Shown: positions 1-7,790 of the stretch, piece after piece | Numbering within the stretch: the stretch's first letter is position 1 | Layout of the letters: each line of letters opens with the position of its first letter | Virus record (IMG/VR): IMGVR_UViG_3300024306_000079 | Location: 1-26,014 of that record | Direction: 5' to 3' (one strand) | From: a virus | DNA: 26,014 nucleotides | Made by a program: the position numbers and the translations under genes | The notes under the pieces: model-generated | The model's database searches: none | Told to the model about the DNA's origin: nothing | What the model saw: the letters and a program-made list of their open reading frames with translations, nothing else

Positions 1-14
1 AGCAAGACGATGAG

Positions 15-1256
15 ATGGCCATGAGCAAACTGCTGGAAAAAGATCTCAAGTTTGAGTACCTGATTCCTGATCTGCTGCCTTGCCCGGGCACGGTGATGAT
101 TCACGGCGCTGGCGGTGATGGCAAATCCATGTCGGCTTGGACGATTGCCAAGCATGTGGCGCGAGGGATTCCGTTCTCGGTGCGGGGTGATCTCGTCCCA
201 GTGCAGAAAGGTCCTGTGCTGATCCTTAACGGTGACCAGAGCGAAGTGCAGGTTCAGCAGCAGCTGCGCGATCTGGAGTTTCGCGCTGATGACCCCGTGA
301 CGGTGGTGATGGGGTGGGATCTGAACTGGTATTTCCGCTTTACCAAGCTGATCGAGAAGCATCGTCCCAAGCTGGTGATTATTGACTCGATCACTGGCTG
401 CAGCCGGGGCTCGGCTTTCGACGAAAACAAGAAAGAGTTTGCGAGTCCCATCTACTGGCTCGCTAACAACAACGGCAGGACGTTCCCGGCCTGCACCATC
501 CTGCTGATCCACCACGCCAACAAGACTGGCGGGTTCCGGGGCAGCACCGCTATCCGGGATGCTGTGGACGAGGTATGGGGGCTTAAGCGACCCGATAAGA
601 AGCAACTGGAGCAGACCGGCGCCAACGCTCGTCTGATCACCGTCGAGAAGTCCAGGGCCGGACGGGACGGCAGCAAGCTCCTCATGAAGCTGGAGAACGA
701 TCTGACCTTCTCCCTGGCGGACTACGTCGAGCTGGACACAGAGAGCGCCAGCCCGGCCTCTGTGGTCGATCGGGTGCTCCAGCGCATACGGGCGGCTTAC
801 CCGCGCTCTGTGAGCCGTTCAGACCTCGCTGCGGACCCTCTGTGCGGTGGCAGCGTCGCCGGAATCAAGAAGGCGACCCAGCGCTTGGTCTCCCGAGGTC
901 TTATTTGTGTCTCAGGTCAGACGGATGGGAATAACGGCGCTCCAGCTACTCCTCTCTTCCAAGCAATTTCCTCGCGTGAAAAGCCTTTAAATGTGTGTCC
1001 CGGTAAGGTAGATCCATTGGTACGACTGGAAAGTGACCCGGGACAGGGGGTAGAGGGTGTCCCGGCCCCCCTTGACGATCTTTCAACTGGCACGACCCCC
1101 CGGGACACCGATCTGGGTTGTCCCGGCAAAGAAGCCAGCCGTATCAAGGGATCTGGTCCGGTGGGACAGCTTTTTGATGTATCCCCAAGAGAAAACGAGC
1201 GGTCTCCTGATGAGCTGGCGCGACTGCGTGCAGAAGCGGAACAGCTCTGGGGATAA
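15..1256 (+). CDS. RepA-like AAA ATPase / replicative helicase, possibly C-terminal part of a longer protein
   Basis: Probable hexameric replication ATPase of the RepA/AAA_25 (RecA-fold) type. Seen: Walker A GAGGDGKS at residues 31-38; Walker B LVIID ending at D124; a LLIHHANKTGG sensor-like stretch around 163-173; RGSTAIRD near 175-182; and a winged-helix-like stretch at about 248-300. The last 100 residues are Pro/Gly-rich, without clear fold, and their DNA carries the inverted-repeat array at 996-1168. The ATG at 15 is the first in the window, but the frame is open to the left edge (codons from position 3), so an upstream primase domain or longer N-terminus cannot be excluded. The RepA-type core normally begins only a few residues before the Walker A strand, so a free-standing ATPase is also consistent. 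No Shine-Dalgarno is visible before 15. Family assignment is from motif recognition. Confidence 0.85.
   Translation: MAMSKLLEKDLKFEYLIPDLLPCPGTVMIHGAGGDGKSMSAWTIAKHVARGIPFSVRGDLVPVQKGPVLILNGDQSEVQVQQQLRDLEFRADDPVTVVMGWDLNWYFRFTKLIEKHRPKLVIIDSITGCSRGSAFDENKKEFASPIYWLANNNGRTFPACTILLIHHANKTGGFRGSTAIRDAVDEVWGLKRPDKKQLEQTGANARLITVEKSRAGRDGSKLLMKLENDLTFSLADYVELDTESASPASVVDRVLQRIRAAYPRSVSRSDLAADPLCGGSVAGIKKATQRLVSRGLICVSGQTDGNNGAPATPLFQAISSREKPLNVCPGKVDPLVRLESDPGQGVEGVPAPLDDLSTGTTPRDTDLGCPGKEASRIKGSGPVGQLFDVSPRENERSPDELARLRAEAEQLWG
996..1168. repeat. Three phased inverted-repeat units, iteron-like; candidate origin or protein-binding array
   Basis: The 8-mer TGTCCCGG occurs at 996-1003, 1058-1065 and 1119-1126, and its reverse complement CCGGGACA at 1038-1045 and 1100-1107. 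A degenerate sixth arm, GTGGGACA, lies at 1161-1168. The left and right arm of every unit are separated by exactly 34 bases (42 bases start to start, about four helical turns), and the units repeat every 62 and 61 bases. The middle unit lies in a different codon phase from the other two, so this is conserved DNA, not a protein repeat. It sits inside the 3' end of a replication ATPase gene. An origin role is inference; it could equally be an operator array. Confidence 0.7.
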
Positions 1257-1264
1257 TCTGATAC

Positions 1265-1299
1265 AGGGGTGCTACACTTTTGCGGCACCCCTACTTTTT
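1265..1299 (+). terminator. Hairpin with T-run between the ATPase and RHH genes
   Basis: AGGGGTGC (1265-1272) and GCACCCCT (1285-1292) form a perfect 8-bp stem with a 12-base loop, followed by ACTTTTT, the form of an intrinsic terminator. The T-run directly abuts the ATG at 1300. The loop contains TGCTACACT, which resembles an extended -10 element. The structure may therefore end the upstream transcript, act as an operator for the next gene, or both. Confidence 0.55.
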
Positions 1300-1497
1300 A
1301 TGGCGACACGCAGAGTCTCGTTTTCGGTTTCACCCGAGACGATTGAGAAACTTTCCGCGCTGGCTAAGTGGAAGCACCGCACTCCAAGCCAGCAGATAGA
1401 TGCTCTGGTTTGTACAGCCACGGCGTCGTTTTACGACACCCTTACACCCGAACAACAAACTCAGTTTTCTGCTCAACTTTGCGGAGAAACTCTGTGA
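1300..1497 (+). CDS. Small ribbon-helix-helix (Arc/CopG-like) DNA-binding protein
   Basis: A 65-residue protein that begins with a short beta strand (RRVSFSVSP) followed by two predicted helices (ETIEKLSALAKWKHR and PSQQIDALVCTATASF), the layout of Arc/MetJ/CopG repressors that bind DNA as dimers. The ATG at 1300 is chosen because the longer in-frame start at 1057 lies entirely inside the ATPase gene. No Shine-Dalgarno is present; the T-run of the preceding hairpin occupies that place. The stop overlaps the GTG start of the nuclease gene (GTGA), implying coupled translation. A role as autorepressor of the pair is inferred from size, fold and position. Confidence 0.65.
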   Translation: MATRRVSFSVSPETIEKLSALAKWKHRTPSQQIDALVCTATASFYDTLTPEQQTQFSAQLCGETL

Positions 1498-2063
1498 TTA
1501 AAGCTATTGACACTCAGTACAAAGGCTACAAATTTAGAAGCCGTCTTGAGGCACGTTTTGCAGTATTTCTAGACGCTATGCGTGTTTCTTGGGATTACGA
1601 AATACAAGGTTACGATCTACCTGTTAACGGTAGGTATTTACCGGATTTTTACCTGCCCAAAGGCGGTATTGCACCGGGGTACGACCGGCCTCTTTGGGTA
1701 GAAGTAAAAGCGGGTGAACCTACTGTACCAGAAATAAACAAACTGAGAGAACTGGCGGTTGCAACTAAGACAGCCGGAGCATTTTTTCAGGGGACGTGCA
1801 GAAACGGTGACAGCACTTTTAGTAACTGGTTTAATACAGATTATGATTCTTACGGTTTGCCTGTAATAAGTAAGGTGCAGATTCCGTTAAATTTTTACGT
1901 GCCAGCAGATCAGCGTATGCCGTCCAGTTTCTGGCAAAGAGAAAACGAGTATTCGTTTGACGGTTACTTTATTCCGCTTATGGGTGAATTTCCGATACAA
2001 CAACTGCGTCGGGCTGCAAAAGCTGCACTTTCTGCCAGATTTGAGTTCGGGGAATCCGGTTAA
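1494..2063 (+). CDS. PD-(D/E)XK superfamily nuclease, AT-rich
   Basis: A 189-residue protein with the order of a PD-(D/E)XK endonuclease core: E19 in SRLEARF, D51 in LPDFYLP, and E70-x-K72 in WVEVKAG. The stretch between them reads as the beta strands of the fold. The GTG at 1494 is chosen because GGAG lies 7 bases upstream and it overlaps the preceding stop; the in-frame ATG at 1368 would overlap the RHH gene by 130 bases. Hand counts over four 60-base stretches give about 40% G+C, against about 63% in a stretch of the next gene, suggesting recent transfer. The target could be host or competitor DNA, recombination intermediates, or a homing site; the sequence does not tell which. Confidence 0.7.
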   Translation: MIKAIDTQYKGYKFRSRLEARFAVFLDAMRVSWDYEIQGYDLPVNGRYLPDFYLPKGGIAPGYDRPLWVEVKAGEPTVPEINKLRELAVATKTAGAFFQGTCRNGDSTFSNWFNTDYDSYGLPVISKVQIPLNFYVPADQRMPSSFWQRENEYSFDGYFIPLMGEFPIQQLRRAAKAALSARFEFGESG

Positions 2064-2070
2064 GCGCTTG

Positions 2071-2409
2071 ATGGTCAATCCACCTAACTTCTTCTTAGGG
2101 CTGCTCCGGGTTGCCGGGTGGCTGTTTTGGAGAGATCCCGTGGCTAAGCCGGAACCACCCCAGCCGAAGCGTCCCAGGAAGCCAACCCTGGGATACACGG
2201 TTGGGGACATCCCCTACGAGCTTCTGGCCGTGGTGCGGATCTCCTGGTACCGCAAAGGTCTGGCCTACGAGGTTGAGGAGTACCAGATCGAGGAGTCGGA
2301 TGATGCCCAAAACCAGTTCAGGTACATCGTTTCGACAGCTTTGAAGCAGGGCGCTGACGTGTGCGTTCTTACGCAGTACGAGCCAGCAGCGCTTGGTGTG
2401 CCGGAGTAG
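2071..2409 (+). CDS. Unknown small protein, possible N-terminal membrane segment
   Basis: I do not recognise a family. From the ATG at 2071 the product is 112 residues. It begins with a hydrophobic, aromatic stretch (FFLGLLRVAGWLFW) that could anchor in the membrane, followed by a Pro/Lys-rich linker and a compact alpha/beta-looking domain (YELLAVVRISWY to VCVLTQYEP). The ATG sits 7 bases after the nuclease stop but has no Shine-Dalgarno. A GTG at 2140 has GGAGAG 5 bases upstream and would give an 89-residue protein without the hydrophobic part. I list the longer form because of tight packing; the start is undecided. Confidence 0.6.
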   Translation: MVNPPNFFLGLLRVAGWLFWRDPVAKPEPPQPKRPRKPTLGYTVGDIPYELLAVVRISWYRKGLAYEVEEYQIEESDDAQNQFRYIVSTALKQGADVCVLTQYEPAALGVPE

Positions 2410-2416
2410 GTGCCCG

Positions 2417-2632
2417 GTGGCTGGTCCTCCCGAGGTGCCAGCCTCACCGCAGCCGGGCTACTGCGGACTACCCGTTCCCCTCAAAGAAAGGACGGAGCAC
2501 AAAGGTAGCGCCTCCAGCCCGCCGCTGCCACATTGCAGAGTGTTACACGACCAGCTTGACACCCTGCTGGTCATGTGTAACTCTAGGGACAGGTCAGCAA
2601 CCGCTGGCCGCTTCAATCAAGTATCACAATGA
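2417..2632 (+). CDS. Doubtful small ORF before 2629 gene
   Basis: An open frame from GTG 2417 to TGA 2632 (71 residues, Pro/Ser-rich) fills an otherwise empty stretch, and its stop overlaps the next ATG as ATGA, the junction style used elsewhere in this arm. GGAG lies 10 bases before the GTG. Against it: composition is unlike the neighbouring proteins, no domain is visible, and a strong hairpin with a promoter-like -35 box lies inside it at 2542-2581. The region may instead be an untranslated leader. Confidence 0.25.
   Translation: MAGPPEVPASPQPGYCGLPVPLKERTEHKGSASSPPLPHCRVLHDQLDTLLVMCNSRDRSATAGRFNQVSQ
2542..2581 (+). promoter_or_regulatory. Strong hairpin with consensus -35 box in its loop
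   Basis: GTTACAC-GACCAGC (2542-2555) pairs with GCTGGTC-AT-GTGTAAC (2566-2581): 14 base pairs with one two-base bulge and a ten-base loop. The loop begins with TTGACA (2556-2561), a perfect bacterial -35 hexamer. A weak -10 (TAACTC, 2578-2583) follows after 16 bases. No T-run follows, so this is not a terminator. It may be a promoter overlapped by an operator for the block starting at 2629. Confidence 0.45.
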
Positions 2633-2868
2633 ACACGCACACACCAGTAGACAACTTCAAGCTCAGCCCCTGGTACTTCGCCGTTAGCTGGGCACGACGC
2701 ATCCTCCAGGACAAGATCGTCCAGCACGAGAAGAACGGTTTCAACCCCGTCTACGACATCCACCAGCTCGAACAGCTTGACGACCTGGAACAGTTCCTCA
2801 AGATGAGCTGGGACGAGTGGATGCAGTCCCTGAATCCCAAGCAGACTGTCAGGGGGCTAGGCGAATGA
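2629..2868 (+). CDS. Unknown small protein, mostly helical
   Basis: A 79-residue acidic protein with no recognised family. Its middle (SWARRILQDKIVQHEKNG to DLEQFLKMSWDEWM) reads as two or three amphipathic helices. ATG 2629 overlaps the stop of the doubtful ORF before it; no Shine-Dalgarno is evident. The stop overlaps the next gene as ATGA. Position places it first in a chain of five small genes (2629 to 3825) that probably share one transcript. Confidence 0.6.
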   Translation: MNTHTPVDNFKLSPWYFAVSWARRILQDKIVQHEKNGFNPVYDIHQLEQLDDLEQFLKMSWDEWMQSLNPKQTVRGLGE

Positions 2869-3110
2869 TCACGGACATCTATGACTTCACGATGGATACC
2901 GATGGCCTTGTCACCGTCACTGCTGTTGTTGATGAAATGGTGCTTGTCCACCACCAAACGCAGCTCGATCCAGCGGAGTACGGACCTGCCTTGTGCCGAG
3001 GCACCTTCTACCTTTCGGATGAAGATCTGATCCCGGCCACCGATGCAGAACTTGCCCGACTCTTCTACAACCGCATCGACGACTGGGAAGTGCTTCACCC
3101 GGACGATTGA
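2865..3110 (+). CDS. Unknown small acidic protein
   Basis: An 81-residue, strongly acidic protein (many Asp and Glu, ending WEVLHPDD). The first half alternates hydrophobic and polar residues (TMDTDGLVTVTAVVDEMVLV) like a beta sheet; the second half is helical (DAELARLFYNRIDDW). ATG 2865 is chosen over an in-frame ATG at 2817 because it overlaps the preceding stop as ATGA and has AGGGGG nine bases upstream. No known family is recognised. A small acidic phage protein of this kind could be an inhibitor or DNA mimic, but nothing specific supports that. Confidence 0.65.
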   Translation: MITDIYDFTMDTDGLVTVTAVVDEMVLVHHQTQLDPAEYGPALCRGTFYLSDEDLIPATDAELARLFYNRIDDWEVLHPDD

Positions 3111-3863: not shown

Positions 3864-4217
3864 ATGAACATGCACATCCTTTCTGATTCTCAGCACCAGG
3901 AATTGGCACACGCTCTGGCCAAAGTCCAAACCATCCTGGAAAGCTGCACCAGCGTGGTGCTTGATAGCAAGCTCGCTACCTCTACCGCCAAAGCCACTGC
4001 GAAGTCTCAAACTAAGACTCGTAAGTCCAGCGGCAAGAGGGGTGTGTCGGTGCTGAACGACGCCAAGGTCATGGAGATCAAGCGTCAGCTGGCTGCTGGT
4101 AACAAGTCCGTGGCCAAGATTGCCCGTGAGTACGGCGTTCACATCACCACCATCAACTGCATCAAGTGGGGCAAGACCTGGAAGCACGTTCAGCTCCAGC
4201 AGGAAGTTACGGCCTGA
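3864..4217 (+). CDS. HTH DNA-binding protein with basic Ser/Thr/Lys linker
   Basis: A 117-residue protein in three parts: a short helix (residues 8-30), a Lys/Ser/Thr/Ala-rich flexible linker (about 36-62), and a C-terminal helix-turn-helix (about 65-111) with VAKIAREYGVHITTINCIKWGKTW. This matches the HTH modules attached to phage homing endonucleases (NUMOD/IENR type), but no HNH or GIY-YIG catalytic part is present. The same module recurs in the protein at 5146-5343. ATG 3864 or 3870 could start it; there is no Shine-Dalgarno. TACACT at 3842-3847 may be a -10 element. TGA and the next ATG share one base (TGATG at 4215-4219). Confidence 0.65.
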   Translation: MNMHILSDSQHQELAHALAKVQTILESCTSVVLDSKLATSTAKATAKSQTKTRKSSGKRGVSVLNDAKVMEIKRQLAAGNKSVAKIAREYGVHITTINCIKWGKTWKHVQLQQEVTA

Positions 4218-4729
4218 TGTCGATCCTTCCTGATTACGAGATCTTCTGCCTGGCGCGGAAAGGTCTCGTGGAACCCTTCGATCAGGAAATGATTAACCCG
4301 GCCTCACTTGATGTGAGGCTTGGGGAAAATCTCCTGGTTGAAATTCCAACAAGCCCGGAATTTGTCCCCTATTCCATTGCGGGGCATACGAAGGAAAAAC
4401 CGTTCATGCTCCAGCCACATGAGTTCGTTCTCGCGGAGACGTTCGAGTGCTTCTCGGTGCCGAATGTTGTGGCTGGGCAGCTGGCGCTTAAGTCCAGTCG
4501 GGCTCGGGAAGGTATCGAGCACTTGATGGCTGGGTATGTCGATCCAGGTTTCAAGGGGCGGCTGACGCTGGAGCTGCAAAATGCACGCGCTATGCATGCA
4601 GTCGCTCTGTGGCCTGGGATGCGGATTGGGCAGATTGTGTTCCACAAGATGTCGCTCCTGCCGAATAAGGACTACTCAGTCACCGGGCGCTATCAGGGAG
4701 ACCTAAGAGTTCAAGCCTCTAAAGGATGA
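4217..4729 (+). CDS. dcd: dCTP deaminase (dCTP deaminase/dUTPase superfamily)
   Basis: Predicted to deaminate dCTP to dUTP, feeding dTTP synthesis; a dual deaminase-dUTPase activity is possible. Seen in the 170-residue product: INPASLDVRLG (26-36) near the start; LKSSRAREG (91-99) with S93 and R97 matching the Ser/Arg of the E. coli active site; DPGFKGRLTLELQN (109-122) with E119 in the place of the catalytic glutamate; and PGMRIGQIVF (133-142). The length is slightly under the roughly 190 residues of typical enzymes, and the C-terminal tail that closes over the nucleotide is short. The ATG overlaps the preceding TGA, and the stop overlaps the next ATG. It sits upstream of the polymerase gene, consistent with a role in phage DNA synthesis. 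Confidence 0.85.
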   Translation: MSILPDYEIFCLARKGLVEPFDQEMINPASLDVRLGENLLVEIPTSPEFVPYSIAGHTKEKPFMLQPHEFVLAETFECFSVPNVVAGQLALKSSRAREGIEHLMAGYVDPGFKGRLTLELQNARAMHAVALWPGMRIGQIVFHKMSLLPNKDYSVTGRYQGDLRVQASKG

Positions 4730-5963: not shown

Positions 5964-7790
5964 ATGAAAATTCTCCAAGGCATCCAGCATCTCCACACCC
6001 TGGACGATGCCAAGCTCGTGGCGTTTGACGTTGAAACCACCGGGCTCCAGCCGAAGATCGGGGGATTGCGGTTGCTCCAGCTGGCTACGCCGGGACAAGA
6101 CCCTGTGGTGCTGGACTTTTGGGAGTTGTCCGACGAAAACCTGATTGAGCTGGAGCAGTTCTTCGAGGTGGAGCGGACCTGGGTTGCGCACAACGCGGTG
6201 TTTGATTTGGGGTGGTTGCAGGAGCACGAGCTGTATCCGCAGGGGCGCGTGCTCTGCACCATGCTCGCCAGTCGTGTACTAACCAACGGGCAGGTAAATG
6301 TAAAGCATGGCCTACAACATGTTGTGCGGCGCTATCTCAAACGCGAGATTTCGAAGGAAGAGCAGCGCAGCGATTGGTCCCAGGATCTGACGCTTAGTCA
6401 GATGGAATATGCGGCCACTGATGTGCTCGTGTTGCTGGATTTGTACCAGCAGATTGAGCAGCGGATGGCGGAAGGTATGCACTATCACGCTTGGTATCTG
6501 GAGTGCAATGCACTGCCGTCAATGGCGCAGTTGTGGCGAACTGGACTGCCATTTAACAAGCAGGATTTGGAAAAGGTAATCGAGGACCTGGATATTGAGC
6601 ACGTAGAACTTGGTGAGAAATTTATTGAGGATTTTGATGCTGCGCTGCCCGATGAGCACAAGCTCTGCCGGGGGATTGATGGGAAGCTGCTGTACCAGAC
6701 CAAGCCTGGGGCGAAGGGTAAGAAGCCGGATCCCAATGTCTTCAATCTCAATAGCCCGGTGCAGCTGCTGAAGAAGTTCACGGCGCTGCTGGGTAAGGCG
6801 CCGATGGATATGAAGTCCGAGAAGCCGAGTGCCAGTCGGTCTGCGCTCCAAGAGTATGTCGGCGATCACAAGGTGGTGGCTGACTACTTGCGGTGGAAGC
6901 GGGTGGAGAAGCGGCGGCAGATGGCCGAAACTCTGCTGAAGAATCTGGCGGATGATGGGTTTATCCGCGCCAGCTACCTGCAGATGGGGGCGGATACGGG
7001 GCGCATGAGTTGCATGAGTCCAAACCTTCAGCAGATTCCCAGGGATGTGCGGTTCCGGGCTTGTGTTCAAGCTCCAACTGGTTGGCGACTGGTAGTTGCG
7101 GACTATGGGCAGATGGAGTTGAGGTTGGCGGCGGCAGAAGCGCAGGATCCCTTAATGACCGAGGTGTTCCAGCAGGGGAAAGACCTTCATACGATTACGG
7201 CGACGCAGATTTACGGGGTCGCGGAGGATGAGGTTACGAAGGAGCAGCGGCAGGTCAGCAAGTCGGCCAACTTCGGACTTCTTTACGGGAGTGGGGCAAA
7301 AGGACTTAGGAATTACGCCGCAACAATGGGAATCCAGATGGATCTTGATGAGGCGGCGGAGGTGCGGAGGAAGTTCCACGCTGCATATAAAGGCATCGCC
7401 GAATGGCAGCAGCAAAATGCTCGCGCTGCTGATGCGGCTAAGGGGAATCCATCTATCCGCATACGCATCTCGGGCTTGCGGCGGTTTCTACCGGGTGAGA
7501 ACAACAAACTCACCACGCGCTGTAACACTCCAATCCAAGGAGCTGGTGCCGCCGTCCTCAAACTTACGCTTGGCAAACTGTGGCCGCTCCTTAGAGCCGA
7601 TGGGGAGGAGATTGTGCGCTTGGCCGGCGTGGTGCATGACGAGATCATCCTGCTCGTGAAAGAAGAACACGCCGACACTTGGGCGCTCCAGCTCCAGTCA
7701 GTTATGGAGGAAGCTGAAGCTCGTTGGTTGGATACGATTCCGCCGCTTGCCGAAGCTAAGGTCGGATTGAGCTGGGACCAGGCCAAGTGA
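5964..7790 (+). CDS. Family A DNA polymerase with 3'-5' proofreading exonuclease
   Basis: Probable replicative polymerase of the phage. The 608-residue product has a DEDDy exonuclease domain: FDVETTG with D22 and E24, HNAVFD with D81, and YAATD with Y149 and D153. The polymerase domain has motif A DYGQMELR (D380), motif B from R429 through K433 to Y441-G442 (KSANFGLLYG), and motif C HDE at 558-560. All catalytic residues are present. There is no 5' nuclease domain, as in T7-type enzymes; at 608 residues it is shorter than T7 polymerase and may lack a thioredoxin-binding loop. Motif A has Gly where most families have Ser (DYSQ). The GTG of the next gene overlaps the stop. Confidence 0.95.
   Translation: MKILQGIQHLHTLDDAKLVAFDVETTGLQPKIGGLRLLQLATPGQDPVVLDFWELSDENLIELEQFFEVERTWVAHNAVFDLGWLQEHELYPQGRVLCTMLASRVLTNGQVNVKHGLQHVVRRYLKREISKEEQRSDWSQDLTLSQMEYAATDVLVLLDLYQQIEQRMAEGMHYHAWYLECNALPSMAQLWRTGLPFNKQDLEKVIEDLDIEHVELGEKFIEDFDAALPDEHKLCRGIDGKLLYQTKPGAKGKKPDPNVFNLNSPVQLLKKFTALLGKAPMDMKSEKPSASRSALQEYVGDHKVVADYLRWKRVEKRRQMAETLLKNLADDGFIRASYLQMGADTGRMSCMSPNLQQIPRDVRFRACVQAPTGWRLVVADYGQMELRLAAAEAQDPLMTEVFQQGKDLHTITATQIYGVAEDEVTKEQRQVSKSANFGLLYGSGAKGLRNYAATMGIQMDLDEAAEVRRKFHAAYKGIAEWQQQNARAADAAKGNPSIRIRISGLRRFLPGENNKLTTRCNTPIQGAGAAVLKLTLGKLWPLLRADGEEIVRLAGVVHDEIILLVKEEHADTWALQLQSVMEEAEARWLDTIPPLAEAKVGLSWDQAK

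Follow-up and report, generated by a model that had tools for sequence, protein, structure and literature searches.

A mirror-symmetric half-site array inside a phage replication gene: probable binding site, and candidate replication origin, of the encoded protein

This analysis interprets an array of short half-sites, which lies inside the gene for an initiator-like phage replication protein, as the binding site of that same protein and most likely as its origin of replication (probability roughly 0.75). The array was found in a 26 014-nt stretch of viral DNA, the window (IMG/VR record IMGVR_UViG_3300024306_000079, positions 1 to 26 014). An origin is thought most likely since the encoded chain is of the Prim-Pol/helicase type and has its winged helix on the C-terminal side, and since lambda O/ori, pSK41 and pPR9 provide precedents. 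Sites and DNA-binding domain covary among related phages, and the two have evidently been exchanged together between otherwise near-identical genes.

Results

The array in the window

The 8-mer TGTCCCGG occurs as exact copies on the + strand at positions 996, 1058 and 1119 of the window, and its complement CCGGGACA at 1038 and 1100, with a degenerate copy, GTGGGACA, at 1161. Positions 996–1168 hold six half-sites in alternating orientation, five with exact TGTCCCGG and one degenerate; in each of the three pairs the arms are separated by exactly 34 bp, and the units start 62 and 61 bp apart. Copies, orientations and spacings reproduce those given in an initial sequence-only reading of the window, as do the codon phase of the middle unit, which differs from that of the other units, and the single exact copies of the 8-mer outside the array, at 6090, 8881 and 16589. 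The same reading described three inverted repeats in the 3' end of the gene. That pattern is present, but the relatives are better described by a mirror-symmetric array of six to eight half-sites of about 10 bp, and while the position within the gene is correct, the contig starts inside the gene and the window holds its C-terminal half only (Table 1). The suggestion that bound proteins would be phased on one helical face fares poorly, since 44 bp correspond to ~4.2 turns but the 17–18-bp junctions to ~1.7 turns.

Allowing one mismatch, 19 copies of the 8-mer were observed in the whole window against 20.4 expected by chance; the unusual feature is clustering alone, not the number of copies. When the window gene was shuffled among synonymous codons, only 1 of 3000 shuffles gave any 8-mer five times within 180 bp, a test that leaves spacing and alternation uncounted, and the cluster is therefore unlikely to be due to chance even without counting these. 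There was no marked AT-rich unwinding element, the AT content of the array being only slightly above that of its flanks. GC skew, which had been proposed as a check on origin position, showed no turn at the array and mostly tracks gene direction. An Rfam scan of positions 1–3000 and a tRNA scan returned no matches.

Table 1. Positions of the replication gene, its domains and the half-site array in the window
Feature	Position	Strand	Details
Initiator-like replication protein, C-terminal 417 aa	3..1256	+	5' half off contig
AAA_25 RecA-like ATPase domain (PF13481)	54..530	+	E 6e-19, residues 18-176
Region matching exchanged cassette (winged helix + array)	722..1202	+	L051 vs L018, gene nt ~720-1200 projected
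Predicted winged-helix DNA-binding domain, residues ~251-322	753..968	+	AlphaFold model + structural matches
Recognition helix, residues 285-297	855..893	+	residue 289 follows half-site type
Wing region, residues 299-322	897..968	+	residues 314, 316, 317 follow half-site type best
Whole mirror-symmetric half-site array	996..1168	.	173 bp, length as in most relatives
Left 50-bp composite unit	996..1045	.	half-site, ~22-bp core (AGATCCATTGGTACGACTGG...), inverted half-site
Half-site 1	996..1005	+	TGTCCCGGTA
Half-site 2	1036..1045	-	TGTCCCGGGT on - strand
Middle 50-bp unit	1058..1107	.	two inverted half-sites
Half-site 3	1058..1067	+	TGTCCCGGCC
Half-site 4	1098..1107	-	TGTCCCGGGG on - strand
Right 50-bp composite unit	1119..1168	.	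inverted copy of left unit, core included; last half-site degenerate (GTGGGACA)
Half-site 5	1119..1128	+	TGTCCCGGCA
Half-site 6, degenerate	1159..1168	-	TGTCCCACCG on - strand

Conservation among related phages

Five scans of the viral collection yielded 80 distinct homologous gene sequences from uncultivated phages. The array is kept in these 80 genes, and this conservation, judged from the sequences, is the decisive evidence that it is real. Outer pairs of the form TGTCC-40 bases-GGACA (the 50-bp geometry) were retained in 79 of the 80. The TGTCC core is constant across the half-sites of the relatives, partly by construction, since TGTCC served to find them. The array measures 173 bp in 45 of the genes and 161 bp in another 30, and a single centre of symmetry pairs most half-sites with a mirror partner (90–100% in the six larger types). 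The centre itself is variable, with six half-sites in window-like genes and seven or eight in others; in the latter the central half-sites stand at a direct spacing of 10–12 bp, and the middle zone in many relatives holds up to four half-sites so spaced. The outer 50-bp units have in common, as inverted copies, a core of ~22 bp (consensus AGATCCATTGGTATGACTGG), and their inner 30 bp are 52% identical, as against 15–30% when slid relative to one another.

The motif TGTCC N40 GGACA was present in 18 of 18 long contigs, with matches at the array except for one extra place in contig G015; read backwards, it gave no matches in the 18 contigs. Four of six long relative genomes have no site outside the array with a score as good as those of the array sites, and a fifth has one. 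No chromosomal relatives were found in a scan of the genome collection. The nearest named relatives of the large terminase are from Vibrio phages, at ~45% identity, which is insufficient to settle the host.

Selection on DNA rather than peptide

Among the half-sites, each of the three frames is used for translation. The first half-site was located through the Cys-Pro residues that it encodes rather than through its DNA; its Cys codon is TGT in 79 of 79 genes, whereas Cys elsewhere in these genes is encoded by TGC in 84% of cases. Half-sites likewise use GGA and ACA, codons that are rare in other places (7% and 4%). On this codon evidence the array is conserved at the DNA level, as the sequence-only reading had argued. 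Its broader proposal, that a DNA-level element (an origin or a multi-site operator) is embedded in the gene, is upheld by conservation and codon usage alike, and in the alignment of homologues arms and spacing persist while the protein drifts.

The encoded protein

Full-length relatives (for example L245:13310-15736) are ~803–820 aa long and comprise Prim-Pol, PriCT-2, AAA_25 and winged-helix domains. In the Pfam scan the N-terminal Prim-Pol match (PF09250) was weak, just above the curated cutoff, and PriCT_2 and AAA_25 were above cutoff; primase, helicase-type ATPase and C-terminal winged helix are accordingly assigned to one chain, the winged helix by model. An AlphaFold model of this last domain alone (pLDDT 73) has three helices and a two-stranded wing in the order helix-helix-helix-wing. 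Most of the structural matches of this model are to DNA-binding proteins of the winged-helix class, among them repressors whose structures were determined on operator DNA. The array starts shortly past the wing. The model of the whole C-terminal half (pLDDT 51) is too weak for its fold matches to be other than suggestive; among them, the ATPase half matches the hexameric helicase RepA of RSF1010. RepA of RSF1010 is a separate protein without a winged helix, and RepC binds the origin.

No RepA_N domain was among the Pfam matches of the protein, and no Toprim-type primase was found, the N-terminal match being to Prim-Pol. The DUF3854 N-terminal domain was missing in the same scan, and membership of the cyanobacterial CyRepA initiator family (defined in PMC10079941) was rejected on this ground and on that of differing domains. 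Genes for a dCTP deaminase (4166–4729) and a family A DNA polymerase with a 3'-5' exonuclease domain (5964–7790) follow the initiator gene in the window, and the same set recurs in one relative (G003).

Half-site types and the reader domain

Bases 6–10 of the half-sites vary between phages but change jointly within a phage, giving about eleven half-site types (TGTCCCGG, TGTCCCACCT, TGTCCCACTG, TGTCCAACTG, TGTCCCCC, a T-rich type and others), with one type per phage at all half-sites, if only loosely in the T-rich group. For each main type the recognition helix carries a distinctive motif or small motif set, e.g. AGIKKAT, TAIRKAL or AAIGKAL. Half-site distance between phages correlated with wing distance (r 0.81, or 0.79 with the effect of the ATPase removed) and with recognition-helix distance (r 0.72 and 0.69, respectively). 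For the ATPase r was 0.30 and fell to -0.09 given the winged helix, i.e. no residual correlation, and for the C-tail just beyond the array it was 0.34, or 0.21 with the ATPase effect removed. Similarly, 26 changes of type are needed on the ATPase tree and 24 on the C-tail tree, against 10 on the winged-helix tree, which is the minimum for 11 types. The most type-informative columns outside the array are wing residues 317, 314 and 316 together with helix residue 289, whereas helices 1–2 of the winged helix and the ATPase carry type information near background.

Since the C-tail lies about as near to the array, on its other side, closeness alone does not explain the match between wing and half-sites. 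The winged helix and the array are adjacent nonetheless, and linkage adds to the association; the C-tail control limits this contribution but does not remove it. Binding of the half-sites by the encoded winged helix is strongly supported by this covariation.

Cassette exchange

Two relatives, L018 and L051, which have half-site types TGTCCCACCT and TGTCCTTTTT, encode ATPase domains that are identical over 240 residues. Before gene nt ~720 their DNA differs by a few per cent, and just past ~1200 by ~1%, but over most of nt 720–1200 the difference is 13–47% (from nt 781 on). The same block is replaced between L056 and L224, and further pairs differ in the same winged-helix and array block over a higher background divergence. 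From these comparisons, winged helix and array have evidently been exchanged jointly, as a cassette of ~480 bp, between genes that are nearly identical in other respects.

Discussion

Origin activity of the array is something that we infer, from the domain make-up of the protein and from precedents, and for these same reasons an origin is preferred over an operator. The C-terminal winged helix of the Prim-Pol/AAA_25 protein would bind the half-sites, reading TGTCC and five specificity bases, with several protomers assembling along the mirror-symmetric array. A helicase ring may then be formed by the RecA-like ATPase domain and open the DNA at the array, where the Prim-Pol domain would subsequently prime. 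Mirror symmetry suggests two opposed assemblies, and hence bidirectional initiation.

Covariation speaks to binding and not to its purpose, and the protein could instead bind the array mainly for control of transcription or copy number, as an operator or silencer, with initiation elsewhere; transcriptional control might take the form of a roadblock in its own gene or act on downstream genes. Arrays of initiator sites commonly serve control too, as in iteron plasmids. However, the array is at the 3' end of the gene and not at a promoter, most of the long relative genomes have no second cluster that could be a separate origin, and six to eight mirror-symmetric sites would be elaborate for a repressor site, all of which makes this alternative rather unlikely.

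The array might also be an origin of another kind, a long hairpin or cruciform recognised by shape, such as has been proposed for pRN1 and for some phages with Prim-Pol/helicase/winged-helix proteins. Arrays of all types do fold better than shuffles, and in pRN1 a stem-loop lies 3' of a primase-helicase-winged-helix gene (PMC4234260). The inverted sites by themselves nevertheless account for such fold scores. Complementarity between paired arms at the five variable bases is only 37% in the largest type, and the left and right cores each keep their own sequence, matching at 9–13 of 22 positions in most types. Direct repeats at 10–12 bp and covariation with the winged helix moreover require recognition of sequence, and shape recognition is judged very unlikely. 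A conserved stem-loop of the pRN1 type downstream of the gene was similarly rejected as a description: the array is intragenic, and pairing between its arms is unconserved in the largest type, though the region folds well.

Short-repeat arrays are also known as parS and pac sites, and some of the relatives have a tyrosine integrase, yet a partition, packaging or integration site for another phage protein is more improbable still, since half-site type follows the DNA-contact residues of the replication protein itself and, in a relative genome, the large terminase gene is several kb off. That the repeats merely encode a conserved peptide linker can practically be dismissed, for despite some conserved residues (Cys-Pro, Gly-Gln) the three frames give different peptides, rare codons are chosen, one synonymous codon is used consistently at half-sites, and the left and right units, though inverted copies of each other, translate differently.

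Comparison with known systems

Sites clustered inside the initiator's own gene and covariation of sites with the DNA-binding domain are traits of lambda O and of RepA_N-kind initiators, and both are seen here. Origins of lambdoid phages show type-specificity, and lambda O is a stand-alone initiator that recruits the host helicase. In the phage protein described here, by contrast, the initiator shares one chain with primase and helicase-type domains, and the array differs from that of lambda in being mirror-symmetric, 3' of a C-terminal winged helix and without a clear AT-rich tract. The likeness is that the lambda origin lies within the coding sequence of O, a phage initiator with its binding sites inside its own gene (PMC7466680). 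Among plasmids, pSK41 has Rep boxes inside rep, a winged-HTH initiator and an origin-encoded linker, and in the chimeric rep of pPR9 a stretch of ~500 bp with binding domain and origin has been replaced naturally (PMC5703833). These RepA_N initiators resemble the present system in sites within the gene, a winged-HTH-type reader and block replacement, but here there is no RepA_N domain, the binding domain is C-terminal, primase and ATPase are in the same chain, and many exchanges are seen within one phage family.

The alpha protein of P4 has a bacterial-type (Toprim) primase, an ATPase of another class, and repeats outside its gene. Like the present chain, it combines primase, helicase and an origin-repeat-binding winged helix in one polypeptide (PMC4234260). 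ORF904 of pRN1, with an archaeo-eukaryotic-type primase, a helicase and a C-terminal winged helix, and with its origin 3' of the gene (PMC4234260), is alike in this domain order and in the placing of the origin toward the gene's 3' side; its helicase is of SF3 type, however, and its origin is a downstream stem-loop, as opposed to a half-site array inside the gene.

Arrays in other AAA_25 genes

Repeat arrays inside the gene, just past the winged-helix region, were also found in some plasmid AAA_25 genes. In Anabaena cylindrica pANACY.03 (L265:4416-4637), eight TTGGACAA copies in both orientations lie past a winged-helix-like region. These repeats have the TGTCC core as in the phages, despite ~30% protein identity. 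Plasmids of Nostoc HK-01 and Nostoc C057 have AAA_25 genes with arrays at the same place; these (AGTCAACA and CTAACAC; L268:4428-4692 and L272 gene nt 2129-2405) comprise 6–8 copies, and the 12-bp direct spacing recurs in them. The array of a Synechocystis B12 plasmid is weaker and not above shuffles. In Caldicellulosiruptor bescii pATHE01, an array lies in a gene with Prim-Pol, AAA_25 and winged-helix domains. Past the winged helix on this 8.3-kb plasmid, a TTCACTC repeat occurs eleven times, in both orientations (L274:1738-1910), and encodes SIHSIHS and SERSER peptides. Papers on C. bescii shuttle vectors were set aside as evidence, since they concern the 3.7-kb pBAS2 and not the array-bearing plasmid.

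No such array was found in the AAA_25 genes of Mycobacterium, Gordonia, Lactococcus and Microbacterium phages or of S-CBS4, nor in those of Gloeothece and Tsukamurella plasmids; with several families lacking it, the array is not a universal feature of AAA_25 genes. Other repeats were encountered along the way. CTGTCAC repeats occur across or near the 3' end of an AAA_25 gene in an Enterococcus plasmid record (L275:4434-4557) and a Streptococcus suis mobile element (L276:3924-4071), and seven CGCGGAAA copies just upstream of the repA-like gene of a Manatee Spring podovirus (L266:3057-3326) are possibly another origin. TGTTGAA repeats with an 11-bp period lie ~470 bp downstream of the Gloeothece plasmid AAA_25 gene that has no internal array (L267:5337-5402), and GTTGGGA recurs in alternating orientation at 48–54-bp steps in a gene annotated as a TPR repeat protein (L268:6215-6527).

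Because arrays of this sort are also present in certain plasmid genes of cyanobacteria and Caldicellulosiruptor, the data suggest that, besides lambda O and RepA_N, a family of primase-helicase initiators came to have its origin within the initiator gene. No published account of such arrays was found in the open-access literature searched.

Significance

The analysis locates a probable origin for an uncultivated phage family found in many samples. It also provides about eleven naturally matched combinations of half-site and winged-helix reader, with clean swaps in gene backgrounds that are otherwise nearly the same, on which the recognition code of this domain is directly testable. Placing the origin inside the initiator gene means that both are inherited together, and with the specificity of the initiator and its probable origin confined to one ~480-bp block, recombination could replace the two at once; a phage would thereby acquire a changed replication specificity in which reader and origin still match. 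A tentative and on the whole doubtful extension is that the gene is a self-sufficient origin module, in which one chain serves as reader, helicase and primase, the cassette is repeatedly exchanged, and the array loads two opposed rings without a host loader. The exchange would then perhaps have its reason in interference between phages of the same half-site type during replication.
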